Shown here: in pieces, positions 13,845 to 45,196 of the stretch | Position numbering within the stretch: position 1 is the stretch's first letter | How the letters are laid out: each line of letters starts with the position of its first letter | NCBI GenBank assembly: GCA_963971425.1 | Contig: OZ020520.1 | Coordinates: forward strand, 4,692,553-4,756,552 | Length of the DNA: 64,000 nucleotides | Direction of reading: 5' to 3' | Source: Bryoerythrophyllum caledonicum | Taxonomy: Eukaryota > Streptophyta > Bryopsida > Pottiales > Pottiaceae | Notes under the pieces: model-generated | Told to the model about the DNA's origin: nothing | Seen by the model: only the letters and a program-made list of their open reading frames with translations | Databases searched by the model: none | Translations under genes and position numbers: made by a program

Positions 13845-15858
13845 CCCTAAACTGTCCCGAAACGCAACTGCTTGAGGTCTCTACGTCCACATACGAAGCC
13901 AACTTAATGAGTCAAATTCACAAACTAACTCACACTGACCCCAAAAAGACAGAAATTAAGCAGCGAATCCAAAACCCTTCGGTGTGCACGAATTCCAGGC
14001 TCCCTCCAAATGAAACTCCAGTGCTTGAACTCAAAGTAATCAAATTGCCATCTAGAAAACCATGCGAGAAAGGTGAGAGCAGAAAATACGACTATGTGAG
14101 CATGAGTCATGACCAGGACTTACAAGATAAAGCCGTCCACCGCAAGGCGCACGAAAAGACACGGGATACCCAAGCGAGAGCGCCAGAGACGAGCTGCAGG
14201 ACGCCATCGCAGCGTACATAATTCTCACCTACCCACCGACCTACACCCACAAGAGGAGCTTCGTGGTTCAGCGCACACCAGCAGGCAGATTAAACACTTC
14301 CACGAACGCGCACTAATGAGCTATACCACCACCACCTCCTACAAAAAAAACCACATCAAACAACATCAAACCACAACTCACGGTACCATTACCCAGGCTC
14401 ATTGATACGAACCGAATCCCCAAAAGGAAAAAAAAAAAAAAAAAAGGTGGAAAAACAGAACAGAGTCGACACCAGTGACCAGAACATAAAAATCCCCATG
14501 AAGCTTACGAGAAGGCCTTGTCGAGAAACTCTTGTGAACAGAATTGAAAGAGAGCTTTGAGAGAAAGGCTAACACAAGTCGCTCAATAAGTGAACCGAGA
14601 GAATGCAGTGCCAAACACCAAACGAGAACAGAAACTCAGAAACAAGGAGACAGTAGAATTGTAGAGGAAGAACTAGAACCCAACCCGCTGGTGAGTGTGA
14701 CTGAATTGAAGGCTAGCTACCAGCGAGCTAGCTCAGTGATGAAGCTCCTTAAACCCCTTGAGAGGCTCAAAGCTTAAACCCACAAGACAACCTAACTGAA
14801 CTCGACCAAAGCGATAGAGGAACTAGAACCATGGCACAAAGAACAATTGTTTTACTTACAGAAGGTTAGAGACAACAAAAATCCGCTTTTCCTGAACTTG
14901 TTGCGGATGATTTCAGCACTCTGGGAGCTTAAGATAAGTTAACAGGTCTGATGAAGACTGATCAGTGGTGATTGATACAATTCAGGCAAGCGGGTCTGTG
15001 CAGATGACGGTTAGGCTATGATGTGTAAGAATATGTCGGCGAGGATGATGTTGGGATGGGTTACACCCAAAGGACATGGTTTCCAACCAGAGTTTGAATC
15101 TCTGTTCAGGAGCTTCGATGTTGGCAGATGATTAGTAGCATGTGGGTTTCCGAAGGGTGTTGGATGTGATGAACTGGAACGTGGGAGGTGAACTTCGGGA
15201 TTTATCCTCAGATTTCGATCAGCAACTCTACCTGAATTGTGGACGACTACAGTGGAACGCAGTTTGGTTGGTTTGAATGTTGGGTTCGTTCTACCGGGTT
15301 CCAGGTTATGAGAGTTTCGAGCATGGCGAGCAAGTGGGGTTGATTTTCAGGTGTGTTTGAGGATGTCGTAGTTTGATGTTCTATGAACGTGTGTCTATGT
15401 GTCTATATTGACATTGTACGTTTGATTAGCCTTCAAGCTCTGTTGCACGTCTCTCTCATGTTCAGAGTTCCATGTTTAAGAGTATTGTGAGGTTTTCTTC
15501 TCTTTAGTTGATGGAATCAGGGTGCCACTTCAGAATCTGACGTAGTGCTCCATCGTGTCCAGAGATTACTCCGCGTATGCTCCTGTGGGAATCAGATGTG
15601 CGCTTGGCAAGCTTTGTGGGTTGAGGAGAGCTTATGTTGGAACCCTAATCGTCTGTAATTGCAGCAATTGTAATGCCTGACTTGATTTCCCATGCGGTCA
15701 TTACCACTGAAGGATGGAGATGATTCCAGAAAAATGAGAGGCTTCTACTTTGGCTGAAAAGCTTCATAGAATCACGTTCAAGGTTTTGGAAGGTAGGCAG
15801 AGTCATTCACTGGCCAGGTTCATCGGAGCCCTGAGGAAGTAAACTCGGAAGAAGAAGG
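13845..15858. other. Intergenic, gene-like composition, no recognisable product
   Basis: The base composition is close to that of the neighbouring genes, but no frame matches a known family. The left part is the probable 5' region of the acidic gene on the - strand. The right part, up to 15,858, precedes the kinesin exon and may hold its promoter and leader. A poly-A run lies at about 14,426-14,444. Confidence 0.35.
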
Positions 15859-28923: not shown

Positions 28924-29096
28924 TCTATGGAAGAGCTGGGTGGTCTTTAAACTCAGGTGAAAAGTAGTTGCAGACACCGTTGAGGATTCAGGAGAGGTGA
29001 CGATGCACATAAATCTTAGCCCACCTCCTTAACCCTTGACCTGATTATACATATTTATGGCTGAATAGAGACGTCAAAACTCATGGTATAGAGTTA
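28924..29096. mobile_element. Left half of a family H MITE split by the 16 kb element
   Basis: The segment starts with ATGGAAGAGCTGGGTGG and TCTTTAAACTCAGG, matching the family H arm at 10.45 kb. Its partner arm lies in inverted orientation at 45,085-45,196. The TTA at 29,094-29,096 is one copy of the target duplication of the large element. Confidence 0.6.
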
Positions 29097-29133
29097 GGGG
29101 GGTTTTACACTATGGTGGAGAACTCCACCGGCC
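29097..29133 (+). repeat. Left terminal inverted repeat of the 16 kb element
   Basis: The left TIR starts GGGGGGTTTTACACTATGG and contains the internal short palindrome GGTGGAG...CTCCACC. An inverted copy of the core (TAGTGTAAACACCC) lies about 115 bp further in, near 29,237-29,250, and may be a second transposase-binding site. Confidence 0.85.
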
Positions 29134-31697
29134 GGTCAAGAAGTCTCGGCCAAGACATGGTTATTTGAGGCGAGCGGTGGTGTTGGACAAGACAAAAAAA
29201 GAATAAAGTAATGCATGAAGAAGTCTTGACCGGTTAGTAGTGTAAACACCCAACGGTGAAGTCCACCGGCCAACTTCATAAGGTGAAGACCACCGGTGAA
29301 CTTCACCACCAAGAAAGTTTATGCTAGCCAATGGAAACCACAATATCTAATGGTCCCCATGGACATGTTATGTAACATTATGGGCTCCGTTGAACTACAA
29401 AATTTTATATCTTTTGCATCAAATGTCCAAATGTAGTACAGTAAAAGTTGTTGGGGAAAAAGCCCCTACTTGTCTAGTTTGTGTGGTAAAAATTTAACAT
29501 GAATACAATATACATATTGTTAGCACACACAACCATGTTATAATTGATTTGTTTCAAACCTTTTAATTATTTGCTTGCCTTTTCTTCAATTACCACATAA
29601 GGCTTGTTGATGCTGACAATAGACTAGGTAACAACACATCTATGTGCTTACTGTGGATTCTACTTTATAATTTTTATATTCCAAAAAAATCAATTTGGTT
29701 GTTCAAAATTTATTTGCCAAAAGTACATCAATAAAAATAAAAGGCAATTTTGTTCATATGTAGAATATATCAGAGATATGTGTTTCTTAAGGTCATATTG
29801 ATTCCATATGGGTCATAAATCGCATTCCATATCAATATTGACATAAAATCAATATTGTTTCAATCCTTCTTGAGATCATATTGTAAAAAGACAATATGAA
29901 GTTGGTATAAAATATTTTAAATACAATAATTATAAAAATGAAATATGAAAAATAACACATAATTTTTAAAAAATATTAGTATGAAACTTTAGGACATTGT
30001 TTTTTCGTCTGGACAATAATTGACCCAATTAATAGAAATGAAATAATTTTTGCATACTAGATGAGTGTGTAAAAGAAATCTCAAAAGATGTCAATATAAA
30101 AATAAGAATAAGATATACCTTGACAACGATTGATGTCCAAATATAAGGTCAAACTCAAAAGCAACTATTCTAGATAAAACATGTACCATCAATGTAAGTT
30201 GTTTTTTTAATTTCCTTCCCGCTTTTTGCCAATGTCATCTTGTCTTTTCCTTTTAATTTCTTCAATGCGCCAACTCTTTGTAGATGAAAAATCATTTTCC
30301 AAATTAGCTTTTGATTTCTTTGAACAAAGGATGGATATCTCCCATCTACTTATTGTTATAAGGTCCCACATGCATTTTTGGCCATAATCACCTTTCAAAA
30401 TCTATACATTCTATGTCAAGTGTAAAAATGTAGTAAAACCTATTGGAAAAAAAGGTCCTACTTGTCTAATTTGTGTAGTAAGAAGTTCACATGAACTCAA
30501 CATACAATGAAATTTTGAGAGCCATTTATTACACCAGGTTAACTCTACTTCTTGTTTAGAAAACATAATCTAGCATAGAGTTATTGGGTTACAATCAACT
30601 TTGAAAATCTAAGAAAAAGTAACACGTAGTAACCTCCTACTTGAAACACAAACCCCATAATCATGTCATTTACAAGTAAAGAACACTTGAAAATCAATAG
30701 CAATAAAAATTTGCAAATATGCAGAACCCTCTTCTACTAAAATGCATGTAACACACTCAATACTAATCAAACGGACTTGAAATTTACACCACATAAACTA
30801 GACAAAAATGCGCATCTCGGAAACAAACAAGTGTTGTAAAAGGATCTTCTACCAAGAAGTTACAGCACACCGAAGTAGCAATGTTCAAAACTAACCCTGA
30901 ATTTTATGGCAGAACCCCCTTCCACTAAAATGCACGTCACTCACTGAATACTTATCAAATAGACTTGAAATTTGTACCACAAAAACTAGACAAAAATGCG
31001 CATTTTATCCAATAATTATTTTTAAAAATTGACACTCGTGGAAGGAGAAACAAGAACTTGAACTTCAGTAAAATTCAACGAATTTGGAGGGGGAAAGAAT
31101 TTTTTTAGAAAGTTCTTCTTCTCCAAACATGCAATTAAGCAATTATGCACTTGGCCATTTAAAAGTGCACTTGGGTACAACGGCGGCCATTGCGAACAAA
31201 AGTGGCAAAATTGAAAAAAAAAAAAAAAAATCAAAGAAAAAAAATGTTTCCAAAGGAAAAAAAATTAAGCTTCTGCAACAATATTACGTACAATCATGGA
31301 TGTTCATATTGGAAGCAATTTTTTGGCATTTTCAACTAATTTGTGGTGGCCCCTCGTTAATACTAGATAAATATGTATTTAATATAGTTTCACAATATTT
31401 CAAAGATAGATTTGAAGGATTGTAGTATATAAACAGGCGTAATTACAAAAAAACATACTTTATGCAAGGGTTGGCAGTTGATTAAAATATATTCTGCGTA
31501 GTACATAATGCATACAATGGTGCAAACTAAATATAGATGCTTCAACAATTGGACTTAGCACCAATAGTAAACACAACTTTACTCTAAAGGATTAATGACA
31601 TAACGTCTTACATCACCCTTAGAATATACTACTCTTACACATACACTATATATCAATTACCATACACAACTACTATACTCTCAAAAAGGCACACTAT
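29134..31697. other. AT-rich left arm of the 16 kb element
   Basis: There are no convincing genes. The region contains two pairs of diverged direct repeats. One pair is near 29,440 and 30,430 (around CTACTTGTCTA, then TTTGTGT). The other is near 30,722-30,815 and 30,914-31,005 (around AAACTAGACAAAAATGCGCA). It is downstream of the DUF7869-like gene and may hold its terminator. Confidence 0.5.
30722..31005 (+). repeat. Direct repeat pair, about 95 bp each
   Basis: Two copies, starting near 30,722 and 30,914, share AGAACCC, then CTACTAAAATGCA or its near match, and end in AACTAGACAAAAATGCGCAT. Spacing between starts is about 192 bp. Confidence 0.6.
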
Positions 31698-34600
31698 CTA
31701 CTCCATAGAATTTAGGGCTGCTTGCAAACGGTCGTCATCGATAGCTTCGGTTTGCATTGCAATATATTGAAGGATGTAAGCCTTTGCCGATTGAGGAATG
31801 CGAATCCTGCTTTCAACCTGCACTCCAAATACATTGCGCTTTCTCCACCCGCCGGCCCCTGACATAGTTCTTTCCGGAGAGTCTGCCCATGAAAAAATGC
31901 ATGCATCTTTCTCTACCCAACTATGGCTCTCCCCAGATGGCTCCCAGATTGAGTCCATGCAATTAGCATACCGTTGTGCAGAAGACCCATGTCCATCAAC
32001 AACCCCCCTTTGGATGCTGGGCCAATACCAACAAACCTTAATCTTAAGTCTCCATCGATTTTTTCCTTCCTCAATCACTTTCCCTACAGAGAATGGTACA
32101 CCGCTTTCTATTTCTGCTCTATCAACACTCAAGGCTACAAATTGTCCATAACAGATATCAGATTGTGGATTAAATGGTGGAAATGGATCGTGATTACCTT
32201 CATACATTGCTCCTTCTTCGGCTCTTTCCTCAACATTGTTGCGCTTTGTTCGTTGTGCCCTGCGTAATGCTTGATTAGAGGGTCTTCCTCTACGAGGATC
32301 AAAGTATCCTCAAGCCTCGGCATTTGGAAGCATAGCCACTACCTGCTCTACGACATTTACCTCGCGATTTTCTTCACTTGCACCATCCATTACATCCAAA
32401 GATGCACTCCCTATAGGTCCGGTGTTGGAGAACTCTGAAGGCCAAAACGGTGAGGTACGATGCTCATTGCTACGATCTTTGTGTGGAAATTGAGCTAAAT
32501 AGAGTTTCAATCTTTCAGCCTCTACTTTTGCCTCACGATTCTTGTCCTCATGCTGCAACCTTTGAATGCATCTTTGTTTATATGCAATGAAGTCATCCAA
32601 CGCCTTCAACTCCCGTTCGTCCGCTGCAAATACTTCCGCAAACGATGGTCGCTCATCCCTATTTGGCAACGACCTCAAAGTTTTCGTCCCTGCCTCCGGT
32701 CCCCATGGATCCTTGCAATAATGCTTGTGTTGTACTCGAACCTCACGAGTCCCTTCCCGATTGTCCATGTAGAATCGCATGTGGTGCGGAAATGTTATGC
32801 CCACCAATGAATCCTGACCTGTCAGTAAGTGAGGAGTTATGAACAATTTCCAATCCCATACATTCTCTAGCAGCCGGGCGCTAACAAATGCCTCTGTAGG
32901 GGATGTTCCTCGTTCTATAAGACTAATCATTTCCTTCAACGAGTCGACGTCCGACCTCTTCAACATATTTGATATACAACTGAAGCGTTGATCAATATCT
33001 TCGTGGGTATGGCCCACTATAAGAAAAGATAGTTCCACCTCCTGGAAAAACCCCAATCCCACCAATGTAGCACATAGAGCAAACATATAAATATTTTTGT
33101 TCTCACGCGTGCAGTTGTCGGCCTGAATTCGCAATGTTGGTGGCAAAAAGCCCCTCCTCCGCAGCACATCTCCAATGACGTACAACAATGTACTCACGAC
33201 TTGATTGCTATCGTGTTTGTGGTGAGCCCCAAACCACACGTCGCAATATAAACCAATCCCATGTACAAGAGCACCACACAGATGGGTCTTCACAAACCGG
33301 TGCTCAATGTTCTTCACAGTCTGACGCATCCTCGGTACCATGGTCGTGTTTTGGTCCATGCCATCCACTATGATGCACATGTACAACTCAGGGCTAATAT
33401 AACACGACCTCTTAAATATCCAATAATGCCTACGTTCTTCCATCTGGTTGCGCAGATGCAACATAAACAACTCCTTTATCTTTATCCTTGCATCCGCATT
33501 GGTGGTTCCTTCCATGGCACATTTATACTCCCAACAATGATAACATTTTGAGAATCTCGAGAATGGAGGTACCTGAACGTGGGGATACTTCATGCGCCAC
33601 ATCCTCCGGAACGAACTCATAGAAATGGTTTCCCCATTACAAATACTCTTGACCTCCTCGTTCACGTAATTGAATACATCAAATTTGGCTGTATTAGTAG
33701 GAAGGAGAATAAGAGTCACCACTTCGTTGTCACTCTTACGGCGAATACAACGATGAGGTTGAGGACCACCAACTTCATTGACAAACGATTTAAAGCAAGC
33801 CTCTGCTGCAGACATTCTAGTAGTCTCTCTTATCGGATCTGAAAGGGTATTGCCGTGAATCGATGTCACTCTTCCATATATTAGACAATCCTTCTTCAAT
33901 TGCTTAAAGCACCTTTGTGAATATCCAACCCCAAGAGCGTAGCAAGCATTGCAAACTTCTTTCCCATCTAACTTTGTTACAAACTTGTCTCGACAAGTTC
34001 CTTCCGTCCTAGTGTAAAAACAAACCAGCATTTGTCTCATCCACGTACTTCGAACTGAAAACTCATTACCCCATGCATTATATCGCATGTCCAATAGATA
34101 CCTTGCTGGAACGTCCCTCAAACAATTGCGTTTGCAACCTCCTTGTGCCATTGCAATTTGCACGCTTCTAAGCGATACCTTAGATGGTGCAGCTTCTGTC
34201 AATGATGGCTCCCTTGAATCTCTCCTTCTCCTATTTTGCATAGAATATGGACGACGTGTTGGTCTAACACAAGCAAATCCATCTACATGGGGCAAATCTC
34301 GGATATTTGAGGGAGTAGATTGGGAAAATGGCGAATTTTCATCTATGGTGTTTGAAGCATGACTACTACGTCGAGACCTCTGGGTGGATCCTGGTGTGTT
34401 GATGAACTCAGGAAAATCAAATTCTGGGGCCATCACTTCTGTAGGCGCTATTTGTGATCCAATGTCACCATGGACACCTGTGATATCAGGTTCTACTGCC
34501 ACTATACGTAGCAAAGATCGATGCCAACGAATGATCAAGCCCACACACATGCCAAGGCGTTCTCCTACAATCTCTCCGGTCCAATGCAATGTATCATCTA

Positions 34601-34889
34601 CCCTAGTGATACGCACCGCCACCTCGAATGGGAACAACTTCGACCCATTCAATTCCATGCCACTTTCGAATGCATGCTCCCTGGTTGCTAAGCCCACCAC
34701 ATCTCCTCTTTCTGAAAGCAATTCTACTGCCCTTTCCAATTCAGAAGTCATGATCCCAATAGATCTTTGTTGAATTTGCCTTGCACGTGCTGCTCGTACT
34801 AATCGGGCCCCCACAGAGCTATTAGAAGGCATATTGTTCCTTTCGATGTGTGGCCGTATCAAAGGAGTCTGAATCGTGCGGCTCTCCAT
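31698..34889 (-). CDS. DUF7869-like protein, candidate transposase of the 16 kb element
   Basis: The frame starts at 34,889, just after a possible CTCAATAG acceptor. It reads 859 codons to an in-frame TGA at 32,312-32,310, then stays open in the same frame for 203 more codons to 31,698. Numbering is from this Met. A Cys-rich region (about 250-335, including CKRNC and CNACYALG) may bind zinc. The core (about 450-660) has CIIVDGMDQ (Asp509), LRIQADNCTRENKN (Asp591) and LIVGHTHEDIDQRFS (627-640). This pattern matches the DUF7869 family and looks like an RNase H-fold DDE/D nuclease. The part after the TGA has a basic stretch RRAQRTKRNN. Mutation of a CpG (CGA to TGA) is the simplest explanation for the stop. 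The role as transposase is inferred from motifs and from its place within TIRs. Confidence 0.75.
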
Positions 34890-35049
34890 TATCACTATTG
34901 AGAAGAAAAAAAACATTATAGTTGCACATTAGTCAAAATACATATACTAATTGTTAACCTCTAAAGCACCATTCATCTGATAGAAGATATGTTTCTGATC
35001 ACATATTTAGTGTTCATCATATGATGATGATACTAAACCTTTTGATAAA

Positions 35050-36040
35050 CTTCTTTGAAATGAGAAAATTTAATATTTGAAGAGCGTCAACTCCTTGCAA
35101 AGTGTCTTCCAATAAAATATACTTCTTCTCTATCCCTAAACGTTGGTGTACAAGGAACTAATATCATTCTTGACATGATGGTAATGAATCTAGACCCTAT
35201 GTAACGCAAACTTTTGAAACCAAGTAAAGTATAATTCCGGTAATCGACTCAATCTAGGGAAAAAATGAACCAGTTTTGTCTACTATAAAATTAAAAATAA
35301 ATCAATCCGTGCGGTCAATTTTATGAAACTTTGTGAGTATGTTACTTAACCCCTAAAAGCCCGTGACAATTTCACACCAAAAACACTTCAACATTATTCA
35401 TTCTAGTGCAATGGATAAGGAAGGAAATAAAACCTTAAATTTATCCTTTTGATCATAGGATCTCCATCAAGACTTACTAAGTAACATACTCATAAAAATT
35501 CATATACTTTGACCACACGGATTGAAAGATTATATTGTTTCAAGTCAAGAAAATGGTTGATTATGTTCCCTGCGTTGAGTGGATGAGCAAACTTTGATTT
35601 CACTTTGTATTATATATTTGCACTACAAAAGGTCTAAATCTTTTACCATTGTGGTAAGCATGATGTTAGTTCCTATTACACCAATTTTCAGAGGTAGAGA
35701 AGGGGTGTAGCATATTCAAAACAAGTGTGCAAGGAGTGGATGTTCAAAAATTGTCAATTCACAATATATTCTTTTGAGAATTTAATGTACTTTAGAATGA
35801 TATTCCAAACGGTCAATAAGAAGGTTTACGTCACATATTCTTGTTGAAAAAATAAAAAGTGAAAAATATGAAGATCTCTAGGTTTTATGTAGAAAATAAT
35901 AAGTTTTTTTCCCCGCTTGCCCGAAATGTGTAAAAATGTTAGACTTCAATTAAAATTATTTTTTACACTATAGACAAGATTTTTTTTAATTTTCAAAGAA
36001 GGTAATATTATCTACTTGTATGGAAAATCTCAATGTCAAT
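35050..36040. mobile_element. Two TTAA-family copies, opposite orientations, joined at TTAA
   Basis: At 35,346-35,349 a TTAA is followed by CCCCTAAAAG. The DNA to its right matches the inverse of the full copy at 45.2-46.2 kb, through ACACCAAAAACACTTCAA and GGGGTGTAGCATATTCAAA. The DNA to its left (35,050-35,345) matches the same family in the other orientation (TTTGTGAGTATGTTA). The right-hand copy appears to have inserted into a TTAA of the left-hand one. Confidence 0.6.
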
Positions 36041-36273
36041 AGAGACTCTCAGCAAAATTTTAGAGCTCCCCGGAGTCCCCATTTCTAACTTTCAGTGGTA
36101 CTAACTTTCACACCATGAATCCAAAAATCAAATTAAAAATATCTCCATGGAGATCTTATCCGGGACAATCAAGTATAAGATATTTTTTATTTAAATATTT
36201 AGTTTAGACTTTTAATAACCTACCCAAAATCTAAAACGTACCCCCCACGTACACTTGGGCTCTTAAGGATTAA

Positions 36274-36990
36274 TCCCTAAAGGACAGGCATTTTCACAAC
36301 AAAATCTCTTCAAAACCGCTCATTCTAGTGCCATGAGTAAAGTTGGAAACAAAAAGGTTTTCTGGATACGTCTAAGCGTACGACCTTAGTTCATACTTAT
36401 TAAGTACAAAGATTAACCGCACGAATTAAAAGATTAAAGTTTTAAGTAGACAACACGGTTAACTTTCTTTCCTAGGTTGAGGGAAATTTTCTTTGACTTT
36501 ACTTGGTGTCGAGTCTTTGCACTACAAAATGTTTAAGTTCATTACCATTATATTAATGATGATGTTGTATTCTTGTACATGAATTTTTAGAGGTTTAAAA
36601 GGGGTGTAGCATATTCAAATCCATTGTAGAAGGGGTAGAGATTCAAAACTTACCAAGTTGCGCTTTATTTTTTTGTGACGTAACCATGTCTTAGAATGAG
36701 AATCCGTATGTATTATGGTGAAAGAGAAGGTTTATACCACATCATTTGAGAGAGAAAATAAAATGAAATTAATGTAAAGGTCTCTAAGTTTCATGTGGAA
36801 AAGAAGAAGTTTTTTTGGTTCTTTGCCTTACAATGCGTGATCGTGTGGGCAAATGATTGACTTGGGTTAATGTAGAAATAATATTACTTGTTATTATTGA
36901 CACCATTGAAAGGGTTACAACTGCTAATACAAGAAAGGATTTCTAATTCCAAATGTAGTTCATTCTAACAACACAAAACAAAAGATTGAT
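36274..36990 (-). mobile_element. TTAA-family copy, 3' end unclear
   Basis: TTAA followed by TCCCTAAAGGACAGGCATTT starts this copy. The interior matches the family (CTAGTGCCATGAGTAAAG, GGGGTGTAGCATATTCAAA). The far terminus was not located. Confidence 0.55.
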
Positions 36991-37859
36991 CGGGAAAAAT
37001 TTCAAAAATGAATAACAAAGTAATTTCTCACCTCATAATAAGTTGCAAGTATAATTTCTCACCTCAAGATACGTTGCAAGTATTTGCGATACAAACACCG
37101 ATATTTGATGGCGCTTAACATTAAATCACCATTCCCCCACTGTTGGTAGACATGCTCTTCCACTCTTTCCTACTTGTGGAACCTGCATAAATTTTATACA
37201 GTGCTTTGTTGAAACTATGTGATGAAAACTTCCAAGTATCTATATATTTTATATACCAGAATAATTTAATATAATAAGTTAAAAGTTTAAACAAATAGAA
37301 AACAAAGTAAAATTTCGAAAGTCCAAAAGTAAAAATTGGACTATTCAACCTGAGGCACAAGGTTTCAACATGCATATAAGGTTCCGTACAAACCTAATTG
37401 CTCACTTCTCTTCCCACTTTCAAAGGTGAGCTCTCCTGGAATCGCAACATCAAAACCAAGTGTCTTCATTAGTTCATTTACTAATTACAGTTAGCTTTGT
37501 GTGGTGTGTAGATTGGAGGAGGCAAGTGGAGCTTCAAGGCAAATCACACGAGCTTGGTAAGCTTCTCTAACTCTGACTCATTGCAGAATCAAAACTAGGA
37601 AACTCAAAGTATAGGTCAGAATGAGGTGAGGCAATATCAATCATTGATCACAGAAACAAATACACCAACTTCAATATCTCTAAACTTTCAAATACATTAG
37701 AAGTCCAGTATTTACACATGATAATAGCCATTAACTACTGAGTGCAGCCCACAACATAGTACTGAAATGTTGGCTTCAAAACCACTGAGAACTGAAACGG
37801 TGAGGTAGTCCATAGTGTGACAATTAATCTGTGACTGCAACTATGCACACCGGCCCACA

Positions 37860-38820
37860 AAGCTAAACCCTAGCAGCCATGTAGAAAAAACCGCCAACCT
37901 AACTCAAACCCTAGCCGCCGCAACCAACAACCCAAACCCTAGCCGCCGCAACCAATAACCCAAACCCTAAAAAGTCAAACCCTAGTGGCCGCGTTCCCGT
38001 AGAGTCCTAGATGATCCCGTGAAGCTCGTAGACCAGAGGTGTGCGCGCGCACACCCTCCATCCCGTGAAGCTCGTAAACCAGAGGTGTGCGCGCGCACAC
38101 CCTCCACCTGTAGCTCCATCCTTCGCTCCAAAAACGTCCTCCAAGACATCCTTCATCTTCACCTCCATCCCACCTACCCTTCCTTGATGCAACGCTGGCC
38201 TCCACCAGCTCGTGCAGTAGATAGAGCCCCGGCCATGGCGGGCATGGCCTGCTCAGGGCGGCCATGGCCATGGCGGGCATGGCCTGTGAGCCAGGCGGCC
38301 TGCCGGCCAGGCGGCCTACCGGAGGTTGGCCTGCCGGAGGCTCTATGGTAGTGAAGGCGGCCTGCCGCGCAGGCTGGCCTCCCTCACCCACACACACATG
38401 ACCTGCTTTCTCACACCCAAACCCTCATTTCTTACACCTAAACTCACCCACATTGTCCTCACATTCGCCTTCCATTCTCCTCCCACCCAAACCCTCTCGC
38501 ATGCTCACATTCTCCTCCCACCCAAACCCTAGCCGCGGCGGCTCCCTCCCACCCTCATATTCTCTCACACTCCCCCTCCATTCCCCTCTCTCCCATACCT
38601 TCATTGTCTCTCTCCAAACCCTAGGCTCTCACACTCAGCCTCCCTCACAACTACTGCCTGGGGTGTGCGCGCGCACACCCCTCATACGACTACCAAAAGG
38701 TGCAATGCATTGATATCCGTCATTGATACCCGAAAATACAATACCCACATCCGAAACCCTAAGTTGACACCCTAAGTTGATACCTTGATGATAACCGGGT
38801 GTTGGTACTAAGGAAGTCAT
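37860..38820. other. GC-rich insert with telobox-like motifs and Z-DNA palindromes
   Basis: Inside an AT-rich region this segment is GC-rich. Its left edge has several AAACCCTA motifs (telobox-like, as in plant ribosomal and housekeeping promoters), alternating with GCCGCCGCAACC. It then holds three copies of the perfect palindrome GGTGTGCGCGCGCACACC at 38,038, 38,084 and 38,662, the first two within a 46 bp tandem duplication. Repeated GGCATGGCC and CTCACACCCAAACCCTC motifs follow. No long conserved frame is present. It looks like captured host DNA or a separate insert. Confidence 0.55.
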
Positions 38821-38899
38821 ACCCTGGTGGTGATACCCTCACTATTGATACCCACAGTACCTTGGTCAATAAATGATGTGGAGAATATCTCAACCAAAA

Positions 38900-39910
38900 A
38901 TCGTTAAAATTGCTTGTTTTTGTGCAATTAGCAAGGAAGAAAAAATTAAAAAAATTTTGGTAGTTTTAACCGTAGGATCTCATTAACGACTTATTAAGTA
39001 ATATGCATAAAAAAATTTATAAAGTTTCACCGCACGGATTGAAAGATTATAATGTTTGAAGTAGATAAAATGTTCATTTTCTTCCCTGCGTTTATTGGAT
39101 CAGCAGACTTTGACTTCAATTTGTGTCGAATTTTTGCACTAAAAAAGGTCTCAATAAATTACCATAATGTTAGGCATGATGTTAGTTCCTTACATACCAA
39201 ATTTCAGAGGTAGATAAGGAGTGTAGCATATTCAAAAAAATCGCGCAATGAGTGGAGGTTTAAAAAATCTCAATTCGCGTTATATATTTTTGTGCACTTG
39301 ATATTGTTTTAAATGAGAATCCAAATGGTCAATACGGTGGGTTACAACACATAATGCCGTAGGAAAAATCAAAAGTAAATGATATGAAGATCTCAAAGTT
39401 TTATGTGGAAATGTGGAAGTTTTTTGGTACCTTGGCCGAAAATGTGTGACAATGTGTGAAAATGATTGACTTGGATTAATATGCTATTTCACCAAAACTA
39501 AAAGGATCATGCTTAACACATTGATATTGGATTTAGATCTTGTGGAGTGCAAAAATTTGACACGAAGTGAAGTCAAAGTCTTTTGATCCAGTAAACATAG
39601 GGAATAAAATGAACCATTTGTTTTGTTTCAAACACTATAATCTTTCGATCCGGGCAGTCAAAGTTGATGGAATTTTGTGAATGGGTTATTTAACAAGTTT
39701 TAATTTAGATCCTACGGTCAAAAGTAGAGATAAAAGTTGATGTTTTTTTCTTTTATACATTGCACTAGAACCAAGGATTTTGAAGTTTATTTTTGAAATC
39801 GTCACGGTACCTTTGGGGTTAATCATGATGTTCGTTATTTGTTCATACATTTTTTCAAGTACATGAAGGGTGTTTAATGGAAGAGAAGTAGTATTGAATG
39901 GGAATTTAGG
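38900..39910. mobile_element. Inverted pair of TTAA-family copies
   Basis: A right-facing copy (about 38,900-39,490) and a left-facing copy (about 39,495-39,910) both carry the family segments GACTTTGACTTCA or its inverse, and ATAATCTTTCGATCC or its inverse. Neither has a clear TTAA end. Together they form a long imperfect inverted repeat. Confidence 0.5.
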
Positions 39911-40286
39911 GTTGGAGATGGAAGTGGATTAATTTTTCAATAGTTGATCTTCAATTAAAATGAACAACTTTGAAGTGTTTCTAGATGGATTTAGATAATG
40001 CATTTTGTTGCTTAACATATTAAACTTTCAAATTATCCATAGTATTGGTTCTACGTACACAAATTTTTGCAAATAGGAAAAAAATGTAATATATTAAAAC
40101 AATTGTCCCTAAAATCAAGGTCTTACCCTAAATCAATACACATTTTCTATTCGTGTGAAATGATCATCTATTAATGTAATTGTCATGCCTTTGTGAAAAA
40201 AATCTATATATGAAAAAAGAATCTTATTCCATACTAATAGTGACTATCGTTTTGTAATGATATACAGGTTTTTTGAGTGTTGCGTT

Positions 40287-43200
40287 ATGGCACCACCAAA
40301 TATTGATAGAATCTGGGAGAGCCACGGCTGGTGGATCGCGGAAGTGGATGAGTCGAGCGCCTTCTTATGGGTGACGGATTATCCCTTAGAGCTGGGGAAG
40401 CGTAAATCGGCGTTGGGGAAGAGTTTTGGCAAAATCCAGCCAATCACTCTTCGACGTGATGATATGGTATACGTTACTTGTGTAGTGGGTCCAGGTCAAT
40501 CGGAGGTGAAGACTTCTCTTTCGAAGAAGTTGCTTCTTGCACCTGTCCCTTTGAATCTTCTTCAAAATCCAGGTCAAGTGAAATTCCTCAAATCATTGCA
40601 GACGTTTTGGTTGAACATCTCTCTTGCGGTACGTACAGCTAGACACAACAACGTCTTAGTCTGTTTAGCGTTATCACCGGAGATGGTGCTGAAGGCTAAG
40701 AAGATTATGGAGGAACATATTAGATATGAAGCATTTCGGGAGAGGGACCCATCACGTGCGACAACTCAAGCCCCACCAGCGGAACCAGAAGAAACAGAAG
40801 TTTATCGAATTCTTGCTGAGCCGTTGCAACTGGATTGGCGACCACTGGAGGGGGGGAGAGGAAGTGGAGGCCAACATCCCACCACAACTTCTGAGGTACA
40901 GACATTACCGAATCCTCCATTAACGAGTAGACGTCCTACGAAGAGGCCACGACGTGTTGACAGTGATGTAGCTTCTGGTTCAAGAGAAAGCCCATCAAGT
41001 TTGGATCCAAGCGGGAGGAGGTTGATTGGGAGAAGTGCAAGATCAGGTGGCAAGATTCCTAGGTCGGGGCTCAGGACGTCTGATGGTCATCGTAGGGCCC
41101 TTACATCTACACTGGAAGATTTAGCTGATTTGTCAGCCATGGCGCCGGAGGAAGAAGATTTTCACAACCTTCCAGACAGTATATCAGAAGATTTTGAAGA
41201 CAATGCAGAGATACCACGGGATGTTCCAACTCCTATGAATTTAAAAGCACCAGTGCCTACAACAGAGGAGATTGCGAAAGGATCAGTGTGGGGGAATTTT
41301 GTGTTTAAGGCACACATAGACCGCATTGTCTCAGTAGAGAATCCGGAAACCAACCACCGGGTTTTATCACAGAAGAGGGTCATAGAAGTATTCAACCGCT
41401 TACGAGACCCAGAATCCGCGACTCGGGTGAGTAGATTGGTACTTCGACCGATCAGATACATCGTGCATACTACCACCGATGATGGTGTCGTTGAGAAGGA
41501 AGAGCTGCCATTTCCATTGGTAGGTACCGCACGAGAGTTTGAGCGCATGTTCATTGCACACGGGAGTGCTTCTGCACAGGGGGCTTTGGGATCCCAGTAT
41601 TCTTGGCTTCAAGATCATATCATTTGGGAACCGGTGGATGGGCAACACATAGTAGCAGCTTGTAAGTTTGCACAGCAGCAGTGGAGAGATGGTACTATGC
41701 CTTTAAACGAGTATCTGGACACGTTTGAGCGGCGGGAGGCCTCTTTTGTGGTGTATGATGATCGTCGCTTTTACATTGAGAAGTCTGCGCGGATCAACGT
41801 GGCGGAGTTCCAGAGACATTCATATTCTACCATGGAGGAGGATTTGAAGAAGATCCGTCAGATTTGAGATCTATACGGGGGGCCTGATAGCACACTACGT
41901 GCGGACGATGCACGCAGGGATGTTGCTTTGGTGAGTGCGGCAAGTGCAGTGCACAAGTTGCCCAAGGGGGATGGAGTTGTCACGGTGAAGAGGTTGGCCA
42001 AAAACATGGAGGATTTGACCAATTATGCATGGAATCCGAGCAATGACTGCTTCGAAGCTATCATTCAAGTATGCAAGGACTACGAAGACGGCATTCTCTT
42101 TTACAGCAAGGAGGAAGAGGACAAGTGGAAGGACATGGCGAGGAAGAAAGAGCTGGATCCAAATGTGGACGTACGACCAACAAGAAAGGAGATGACGCAG
42201 AATTGGTTGAGGCCTCTAGGTAGGGTTCCGAATCCATATTTTCTTCGGTTGGCAAAGTCTGCTGCAGCGAAGCCGGTGGGGGAGGATGGAGTAAGACCAC
42301 GTCAAGCATATTACTTTGACGGTGTAAAAGACAAGAATCCACATCCTCGTACGATTGCCGGTGTGGTTGACCGATATCAGAGACGAGAAGCTGTGATGAA
42401 TTCGATCCGTTGGTTGATGGTGGAGAACAAGGAAAGTACACATGATTCCATGGAGGAGTTCTTTCGTATCCGTGTAGCGAAGTATTTTCCGAAGAGTAAT
42501 GCAGAACATGATACGTTTGGGAAGCTTTTGAATGCTGCCACGAAAAAAGCTTGGACTGCTCCTGTGCGGGGGAAGGTGTCTAAACTGGAAGACATAGGCT
42601 ACCTCATCCCCCCTTCCATCAAGTTTCATTATGGTGACATTGCAGCAGGGGGGCGTGGATACATTGGACTGTCCGTGGATGTGGGAGAATTGGCTACTGC
42701 TAATTGGGAATGGCAGATGGAAGTCAAGAGGCCAGGCCAGAGCGACACAGAGAATCTTCTTCCGGTTCGGTGTAGAAGAGGGTTATTCCGCACCGACTAC
42801 ATAGAGTTGGGGAAACCATGTTTGTGGGTGATTGATTGTCGACGTGGCGGTGGGAGGCATGGAGATGGTCATTGGGGAGACGCCCAGTTATCCGCAGCTT
42901 TTGCACAGCTGACATTATGGATGGCAAATATTGAACGATGGAACGTCATCTTCTTGTTACCAGCGGCTGTGTATGCCAACGAAGACTTTTTCACGAAGGT
43001 GAAGCTTCCAGAGGGATGTACTATGCGACGTGGATGCTGGGCTTTTGATCCCAACTCGGTTAATCCCTATGCTCTTGATTTTACAGAGAATGGGCGTCTG
43101 GAGCAAGTAGTACAACCGATTGGCGATGTTGTGATTTGTATGCAGCACCCTGTGGGTACATCTCCTGGCCCGAACTATGTTTCTGGAGACGTTCCACTTC

Positions 43201-44231
43201 CACTTGTATTCTTGGATCACTGGAGTGAGGCACGCCAACCCTCTGAAGTTGATTCACTTGAGAGATCTCCATCAGAGCTGGCAAGACTAGTGGGCTCATA
43301 CTTGCCCCGTGGTTGGGGTTTAGTGGCGTGTAACATATCTACAGCCATTCCCACGATCCTTGAAGGAGATTTCCAGGGATCTGAGGTTTTCATCATTGAC
43401 GATTGTACAGACAGAGTTTCATTCCTGTACAATGAGTTGTCCGACAATTTCCAAGGACAACTGTTGGTCAGGACTGGTGAAACAAGTACTGGTTGCAACA
43501 TCGTACTTGAGACCGAAGATGCGGTTGGTGGAGTGAGGAATGAAGAGGACAATGAGGATGGAGGTGGTTTACATGAGAGATTGTCACGTTCAGGTACCAC
43601 TGAAGATTTCTCATCTGGCAGTGATTCAGACGCCGATGAGGATGGAGAGAGAATTCCATCAACGCAGCGGACGGTGGGAGATACTTCAGGGGCGACGTCT
43701 GCAACACCTATAGAGAGGATGCAAGATACAAGTGTAGTAGATGTTAGTTTGGCGGCAGGGGCAGGACGGGGGCGTACATTTGATGGTCCTAGGTTGGAGA
43801 TGGAGGAAGAAGGATTGGATTCATGTGAATTTTTTTCGGTGCAGAGGACGATTCGACAGCCTTCGATGCCTTCTCAATCAGAGCCTGTATCGGAGACACA
43901 AGAGACGTTCGGAGGTACTCAGAGTGATACCAGACCAGATTTGCCTCCCGTTCCAAGATCTAGCGTATCCGAGGACATCATTGCATTTCAGGGGGCCTTC
44001 TCATCAGAGCGAGAGATGTCCTTCAATGCAAAGGATGGCTTTTTCTATAATGATGACAGGGTAAGGCATACGCGGGAGGGTATTCCTGGCAATTACCGAT
44101 TTGTTGAGTGTGCGTCCATTGGCATCGAAGATGTGGGAGATCGTCCAGTGGAGGATCATGAACTATCCGCTATGGTAGGTAGCGCCATTGGACACGTGGA
44201 GGGAGTCGTTCCGCCAGCAGATGAGCTGTGA
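40287..44231 (+). CDS. Second gene of the 16 kb element, unknown family with a DGQH motif
   Basis: From the Met at 40,287 the frame reads 526 codons to an in-frame TGA (41,865-41,867). It then stays open in the same frame for 787 codons to 44,231, about 1,313 sense codons in all. There is no ATG just after the TGA, so the second half is not an independent gene. The start could also be the ATG at 40,257. Regions in order: a globular N-terminus (RIWESHGWWIAEVDES), a disordered middle with a nuclear-signal-like RRPTKRPRR (215-223), a segment with WEPVDGQHIVAACKFA (DGQH at 451-454) that resembles ParB/sulfiredoxin-fold proteins, then a large domain with Trp and Gly motifs (VIDCRRGGGRHGDGHWGDAQ), and an acidic serine-rich tail. 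I do not recognise the family. The ParB resemblance is tentative. Confidence 0.65.
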
Positions 44232-45047
44232 GCCGTGGAGCTATATACTTAGTAGAGCATGCACGCAGTTTAGGTGGCAAGTACGTTAGTATAATGCAGT
44301 TTGAGATGTGTCTATCATTCGGTTGGTGGTATATATTTATATATTGGGTGGTCCATATGATATGTTTGATTTTAGAATTCCTCAACAATAGTGTGGAATT
44401 GCTTGATTATGTATGTTTTTGCATTATAAAATACAATGAGGTACTTTACACTGTCTTAGGAATTTGCATATATATTTTTGTATCTCTTACACATTGTATT
44501 TGTAGTGCAGTACTCTAAAATCCTATGATAACTCATAACACATTTATAATCTCTTTGGGCACATGATCATAATTTTGTAGCAGGATTTGCAAACTAGAGT
44601 AGAAATCATATATTTTCTAAAAAAAGGTAGCGAATGTAAAAAATATATTACTGATATGAACATAAAGATGCCAATGTATGATACGACAAACACCAAAAAA
44701 ATTTGACAAAAAGCATACTAAAATTTTGCCAAATTTTGATTTAAAAAAAAGTTATGAGCAAATAACTTGCGGCTTTCTACCACCAACCAGTGCACTTGGC
44801 TAAGTGCATAATTGCTTAATTGCATGGACCAGTGGTTTGGTTTCTTGTATGGGGGGTTGAGGTCGGACAAGAAACTAATCCAGAGGAGAGGACCTCTTCA
44901 AAAAAGTGTTGCCACATAGGCATCCATGTCATTTTTTCATCCATGCTTGAAGTTCTTCACGGATCAAGTCTTGGCCATAGTGTAAACCCAATCCGGTGAA
45001 GAACAAATTGTTCTCCGATCATATTGCTCCATTTCCCTTGAATTCTT
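44232..45047. other. Right arm of the 16 kb element
   Basis: This is non-coding DNA after the second gene. A direct-oriented subterminal copy of the TIR core (CATAGTGTAAACCC) lies near 44,974-44,990. The rest is AT-rich, without recognisable features. Confidence 0.5.
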
Positions 45048-45084
45048 GGCCGGTGGAGTTCTCCACCATAGTGTAAAGCGGGCC
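45048..45084 (-). repeat. Right terminal inverted repeat of the 16 kb element
   Basis: Read inward on the - strand it starts GGCCCGCTTTACACTATGG and continues into the same CTCCACC hairpin as the left end. It differs from the left TIR at only four positions, all within the first seven bases. Confidence 0.85.
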
Positions 45085-45196
45085 TTAGGAACCTGTGGTA
45101 ATATTCATCAGGGTGTCTCATTCAAACTCTTCCTTCAAAGTAAAAGGTGGCTAAAACTACTTTGACTTGAGTTTAGAAACCATCACGCTCTTCCAT
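45085..45196. mobile_element. Right half of the split family H MITE
   Basis: The segment ends with GAGTTTAGAAACCATCACGC and TCTTCCATTGA, the inverse of the left-half arm at 28,924. It begins with the second TTA of the target duplication. Confidence 0.6.

Follow-up and report, generated by a model that had tools for sequence, protein, structure and literature searches.

The 16 kb between positions 29097 and 45084 of a 64,000-nucleotide stretch of the moss Bryoerythrophyllum caledonicum (the window; C8:4692553-4756552) is made up of two transposons, with a two-gene element of 13.7 kb nested in an older, TTA-flanked element of 2.3 kb that belongs to another family. We put a probability of about 0.74 on the reading that the nested element is a cut-and-paste transposon of the Sola type, in which gene 1 encodes a predicted DDD transposase and gene 2 a putative accessory protein. 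An earlier examination of the letters by themselves (the sequence-only reading) had taken the same segment for one nearly intact 16-kb transposon. The genome containing the window could be searched throughout (437 Mb, 894 contigs), and the unity of that supposed element could therefore be tested.

Two elements, one nested in the other

The boundaries of the two elements in the window are as follows:

29094-29096 (left) and 45085-45087 (right): TTA target duplication of the outer element, both copies read in the window
29097-29133, + strand: left outer inverted end of the TTTACACTA element
45048-45084, - strand: right outer inverted end, pairing with 29097-29133
29097-31125: left part of the outer element, 2029 bp
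44832-45084: right part of the outer element
31123-31125 (left) and 44829-44831 (right): CCA remnants of the target duplication of the inner element
31126-31156, + strand: left inner inverted end, 31 bp, AACA[C/T]GCAATTAAGCAATTATGCACTTGGCC
44798-44828, - strand: right inner inverted end, with the terminal TT replaced by GA in the window copy

At the outer boundaries, the window is as had been described. The 37-bp inverted ends match at 33 positions by hand count, with their inner 30 nt 100% complementary; the TTA duplications are exact, and subterminal TTTACACTA-type copies can be recognised by eye. A second inverted pair (repeat pair I11) sits exactly at 31126 and 44828, and bounds the two-gene element of 13.7 kb (31126-44828), which thus has 31-bp inverted ends of its own. 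The window copy of this inner element is a relic, with one stop in each gene and altered bases at its right terminus.

Copies of the two-gene element were taken whole in 10 cases and at both ends only in 10 more, all 20 having been picked from gene-1 matches without stops. The gene-1-side end reads AACACGCAATTAAGC, or a one-base variant of it, in 20 of these 20 other copies, and both ends were located in 17 (the exceptions being L022, L032, and L040). An exact 4-bp target duplication flanks 14 of the 17, in 11 different sequences, and the remaining three have duplications of 5, 0, and 2 bp. The colinear match to the window begins at position 2029-2032 of the supposed 16-kb element (window ~31126) in all ten whole copies and reaches the far end at position 15730 (window 44826) in nine; in L022, the remaining copy, it gives out within gene 2. 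When the first 62 bp of the inner element were searched for in the genome, all 40 scored matches, from 1028 candidates, were 98-100% identical.

The outer element, in turn, exists without the insert. Five of five other long outer copies read (L062-L066) pass uninterrupted from the left part to the right part at the insertion point, and are paralogous empty sites for the 13.7-kb insert. The TTTACACTA core (24 nt, with up to 3 substitutions allowed) is absent from 10 of 10 whole copies of the gene pair. Outside the inner element, the further matches of these copies to the window are copies of the ~300-bp repeat found within that element; L012 has, in addition, a 71% match to the right part of the outer element, on the wrong side, namely that of gene 1. 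Since the long outer copies are uninterrupted and the inner element has ends of its own, the 16-kb reading had combined the termini of the outer element with the genes of the inner one. A single TTA-flanked element of 16 kb, whether a new superfamily or an extreme relative of Harbinger or Zator, was rejected as extremely improbable: the matching ends and exact TTA in the window and the nearby L012 stretch speak for it, but the missing outer core, the side on which the L012 stretch lies, the inverted ends and 4-bp duplication at 31126/44828, and the empty sites all speak against it. What survives of the sequence-only reading is a large DNA transposon, present in many copies, in which two divergent genes travel together; its proposed ends, target duplication, and size do not survive, and the test it had set beforehand, the same gene pair between TTA/TTTACACTA ends in other copies, gave no such case in the copies read. 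The case also exposes a trap, in that a nested insertion mimicked a new 16-kb superfamily.

Beside the L016 copy, in L017, two ends of the inner family lie close together (976-1000, - strand, and 2288-2312, + strand). This suggests that a second family member was inserted beside or into the L016 copy, and such an insertion may be the cause of the missing target duplication there.

The divergent gene pair

The genes and their main features are located as follows:

31698-34889, - strand: gene 1, DUF7869 protein, 1063 codons, one internal stop at 32310-32312
32751-33299, - strand: Pfam DUF7869 (PF25273), E-value 3.2e-50, starting after D509/D512
32991-33365, - strand: span of the predicted catalytic aspartates, D509 (33363-33365), D512 (33354-33356), D591 (33117-33119), and D633 (32991-32993)
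34929-40196: intergenic stretch in the middle of the element, carrying diverged ~300-bp repeats in direct and in inverted orientation; its length differs between copies
40287-44231, + strand: gene 2, 1314 codons, one internal stop at 41865-41867
41625-41666, + strand: WEPVDGQHIVAACK motif of gene 2, ParB-box-like
42822-42848, + strand: LWVIDCRRG motif of gene 2, at the inferred place of methyltransferase motif IV, without [DNS]PP[YFW]

The two giant genes seen by the sequence-only reading are thus present, and they stay together. Their divergent arrangement recurs in 10 of 10 whole copies; gene 2 is incomplete in L022 and disrupted by frameshifts in L016 and L028. Among the top matches listed, the genes are neighbours in divergent orientation in at least 18 cases, including that of the window; 17 of these 18 are spaced at 5.3-7.2 kb and one at 16.9 kb, and three further neighbours do not fit the pattern. 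The genome search with gene 1 gave 52 scored matches from 3783 first-look candidates, all 94-100% identical and the window's own among them, and that with gene 2 gave 57 scored matches from 1616 candidates. Of the 51 other gene-1 matches, 28 are free of stops in the aligned part, 26 of which are listed with frames of at least 1071 amino acids. The central region (34929-40196) likely holds putative divergent promoters.

Gene 1 gives DUF7869 and no other domain in the Pfam scan. Its structure prediction shows an RNase H-like fold in which the conserved aspartates are placed, these residues are nearly invariant among 44 aligned rows (D509 in 43, D512 in 44, D591 in 42, and D633 in 44), and 50 of 50 VIA matches listed are integrases or transposases. 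Because of these three lines of evidence, we predict that gene 1 encodes a DDD transposase. A protein-database search returned 311 DUF7869 relatives, the full-length ones being ~1063 amino acids long; distant members among the 120 listed come from Riccia, Chara, Ceratopteris, and many marine animals.

Gene 2 is under constraint (ratio of nonsynonymous to synonymous substitution rates, dN/dS, 0.32), and the Pfam scan found no domain in it. Its WEPVDGQHIVAACK motif, which we take to resemble a ParB box, is well kept among 30 rows: counting those with a residue at the place concerned, WEP is found in 22/22, DG in 23/23, Q in 24/24, and H in 23/24. The protein also has a weak match to the ParB fold and weak VIA matches to methyltransferases. 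The catalytic signature of N4/N6 methyltransferases is [DNS]PP[YFW]; at the inferred place of motif IV, gene 2 has DCR in 19 of the 19 rows with a residue there. We suggest that gene 2 may encode a ParB-like protein whose methyltransferase-like domain would be degenerate and has probably lost catalysis. The profile tests, hhalign included, found no match of gene 2 to methyltransferases and did not confirm the ParB-like domain. Relatives among the best ~8000 candidates scored number 12 by protein search and 25 by profile search (best 7996).

Two other identities were considered for gene 2. VANC is the anti-silencing factor of Arabidopsis VANDAL elements, and gene 2 might resemble it in role while being unrelated to ParB or to methyltransferases. 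Its large size, its constraint, and its linkage to the transposase gene would suit such an accessory factor, but the ParB-like motif and the weak ParB fold match point elsewhere, and we regard the idea as possible, if doubtful. The second, an active N6/N4 DNA methyltransferase whose ParB-like domain would serve to mark its own element, as has been proposed for algal elements, appears improbable in view of the DCR that stands in place of the catalytic signature and the lack of any profile match of gene 2 to methyltransferases.

Three diverged direct copies of the ~300-bp unit, together with inverted copies, were seen at 35200-39800. L012, L018, and L030 carry stretches related to this unit outside the element as well, as if the unit were itself a dispersed repeat.

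Relation to Sola and proposed mechanism

Harbinger elements pair a DDE_Tnp_4-type transposase with a Myb-like partner, and Zator elements are characterised by a 3-bp duplication. PIF/Harbinger was rejected for the inner element, whose duplication is 4 bp instead of a 3-bp TWA or TNA (W being A or T), and Zator was rejected on the same difference, 3 bp there and 4 bp here. The kinship with these groups that had been proposed for the two-gene element is not supported.

Sola elements, in the passages cited here, have a DDD transposase, 4-bp target-site duplications, a size of mostly 2-9 kb with some >15 kb, and a record in Physcomitrella (PMC10741241, PMC9033089), and their terminal inverted repeats (TIRs) measure 11-1124 bp (PMC10741241). 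The inner element is like them, and Sola1 in particular, in its DDD transposase with an RNase H-like core (by prediction only), its 4-bp duplication, its 31-bp TIR, its presence in a moss, and its large size; it differs in carrying a second gene, which those passages do not give as a Sola feature. A partial counterpart is Sola1-1_Ec32 of Ectocarpus, which an excerpt of PMC12477816 gives as 21.5 kb long, with a second gene that is oriented against the transposase gene and encodes a ParB-like and methyltransferase protein of 1104 amino acids. Both elements are large, with a second gene opposite the transposase that in the moss may likewise be of the ParB/methyltransferase kind. The moss element is 13.7 kb long and its gene 2 has 1314 codons; the relation of gene 2 to ParB and to methyltransferases is at the level of motif and weak fold only, with the catalytic signature apparently lost. 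Because the DDD transposase, the 4-bp duplication, and the size fit Sola, and because Ectocarpus provides a precedent for a Sola1 element with a ParB-methyltransferase gene, we file the inner element as likely Sola-like and not as a proven Sola1, the comparison being one of described features and not of transposase sequence.

The element could instead stand outside Sola, in a DDD superfamily of its own, with DUF7869 as the hallmark, a 4-bp duplication, and a gene-2 partner. Such a superfamily would agree with the Pfam label of gene 1, which is DUF7869 alone, with the 311 relatives (among the 120 listed are many from animals and others from a charophyte, a liverwort, and a fern), and with the narrowness of the gene-2 family, 25 proteins by profile. 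However, Sola as published already has the same triad, duplication length, and moss record, and a ParB-methyltransferase gene has been described in a Sola1 element of an alga (PMC12477816); we therefore consider a separate superfamily rather unlikely. More speculative, and unlikely in our view, is that DUF7869 defines a two-component transposon superfamily across plants and animals, which in the present lineage would have taken up a ParB-like protein, of the plasmid-partition kind, fused to a dead DNA methyltransferase and converted into a non-catalytic clamp that pairs or shields the ends.

As a Sola-type element, the inner element would likely move by cut-and-paste. TGCACTTGG is found three times in the 13.7 kb, in each case no more than 50 bp from an end, and these repeated sites are the predicted binding sites of the transposase. 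The gene-1 protein would bind them, pair the ends, cut, and join the element into its target with a 4-bp stagger. The gene-2 product would be an accessory that most likely binds DNA in the manner of ParB and has a methyltransferase-like domain, probably without catalysis, and might sit on the element's own DNA, aiding transposition or escape from silencing; end pairing, anti-silencing, and methylation are its candidate roles. DUF7869, a large orphan domain family, thereby gains a specific predicted function, as the catalytic core of the transposase of an element whose ends and 4-bp duplication are defined. The element probably adds a land-plant case to the large algal elements in which a sizeable second gene of the ParB-methyltransferase type has been reported, and, since the genome holds many copies with an open gene-1 frame, what such accessory genes do can be put to the test.

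The outer element and its surroundings

The outer family is high-copy and has short and long forms, the window holding the longer one of ~2.3 kb. All 40 scored genome matches to its first 64 bp (from 372 candidates) are 100% identical. Eight loci read for the family are short elements of ~394 bp, with TWA duplications that agree in six of the eight; positions 29225-31125 are internal sequence that is missing from all eight. A probe covering 30600-31125 gave 54 matching stretches in the genome, a count that includes the window's own and some loci twice. No transposase was found in the outer element. It is like PIF/Harbinger-like non-autonomous elements in its 3-bp TWA duplication (TTA in the window) and its G-rich terminal inverted repeats. 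CACTA/EnSpm elements start with CACTA at the terminus; in the outer element, CACTA lies further in, from base 12 of the terminus next to the TWA duplication, and this assignment was rejected. TNA duplications are called classic for Harbinger in an excerpt of PMC12477816.

The 71% match in L012 (2529-2756) to the right part of the outer element lies 260 bp beyond the gene-1-side end of the inner copy, and may come from a diverged member of that element's family.

Elsewhere in the window, frames with HET, P450, and CAP domains, together with AAACCCTAG-type repeats, point tentatively to a bryophyte-like plant as host. A 770-amino-acid frame at 7060-9372 (- strand) has a HET domain (PF06985, E-value 1e-25), which is unusual in plants other than mosses. 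A Cytochrome P450 stretch (PF00067; 19227-19952, - strand) and a CAP-domain frame (PF00188; 26543-27268, - strand) both look like ordinary host genes, and AAACCCTAG-type repeats also occur in the window.
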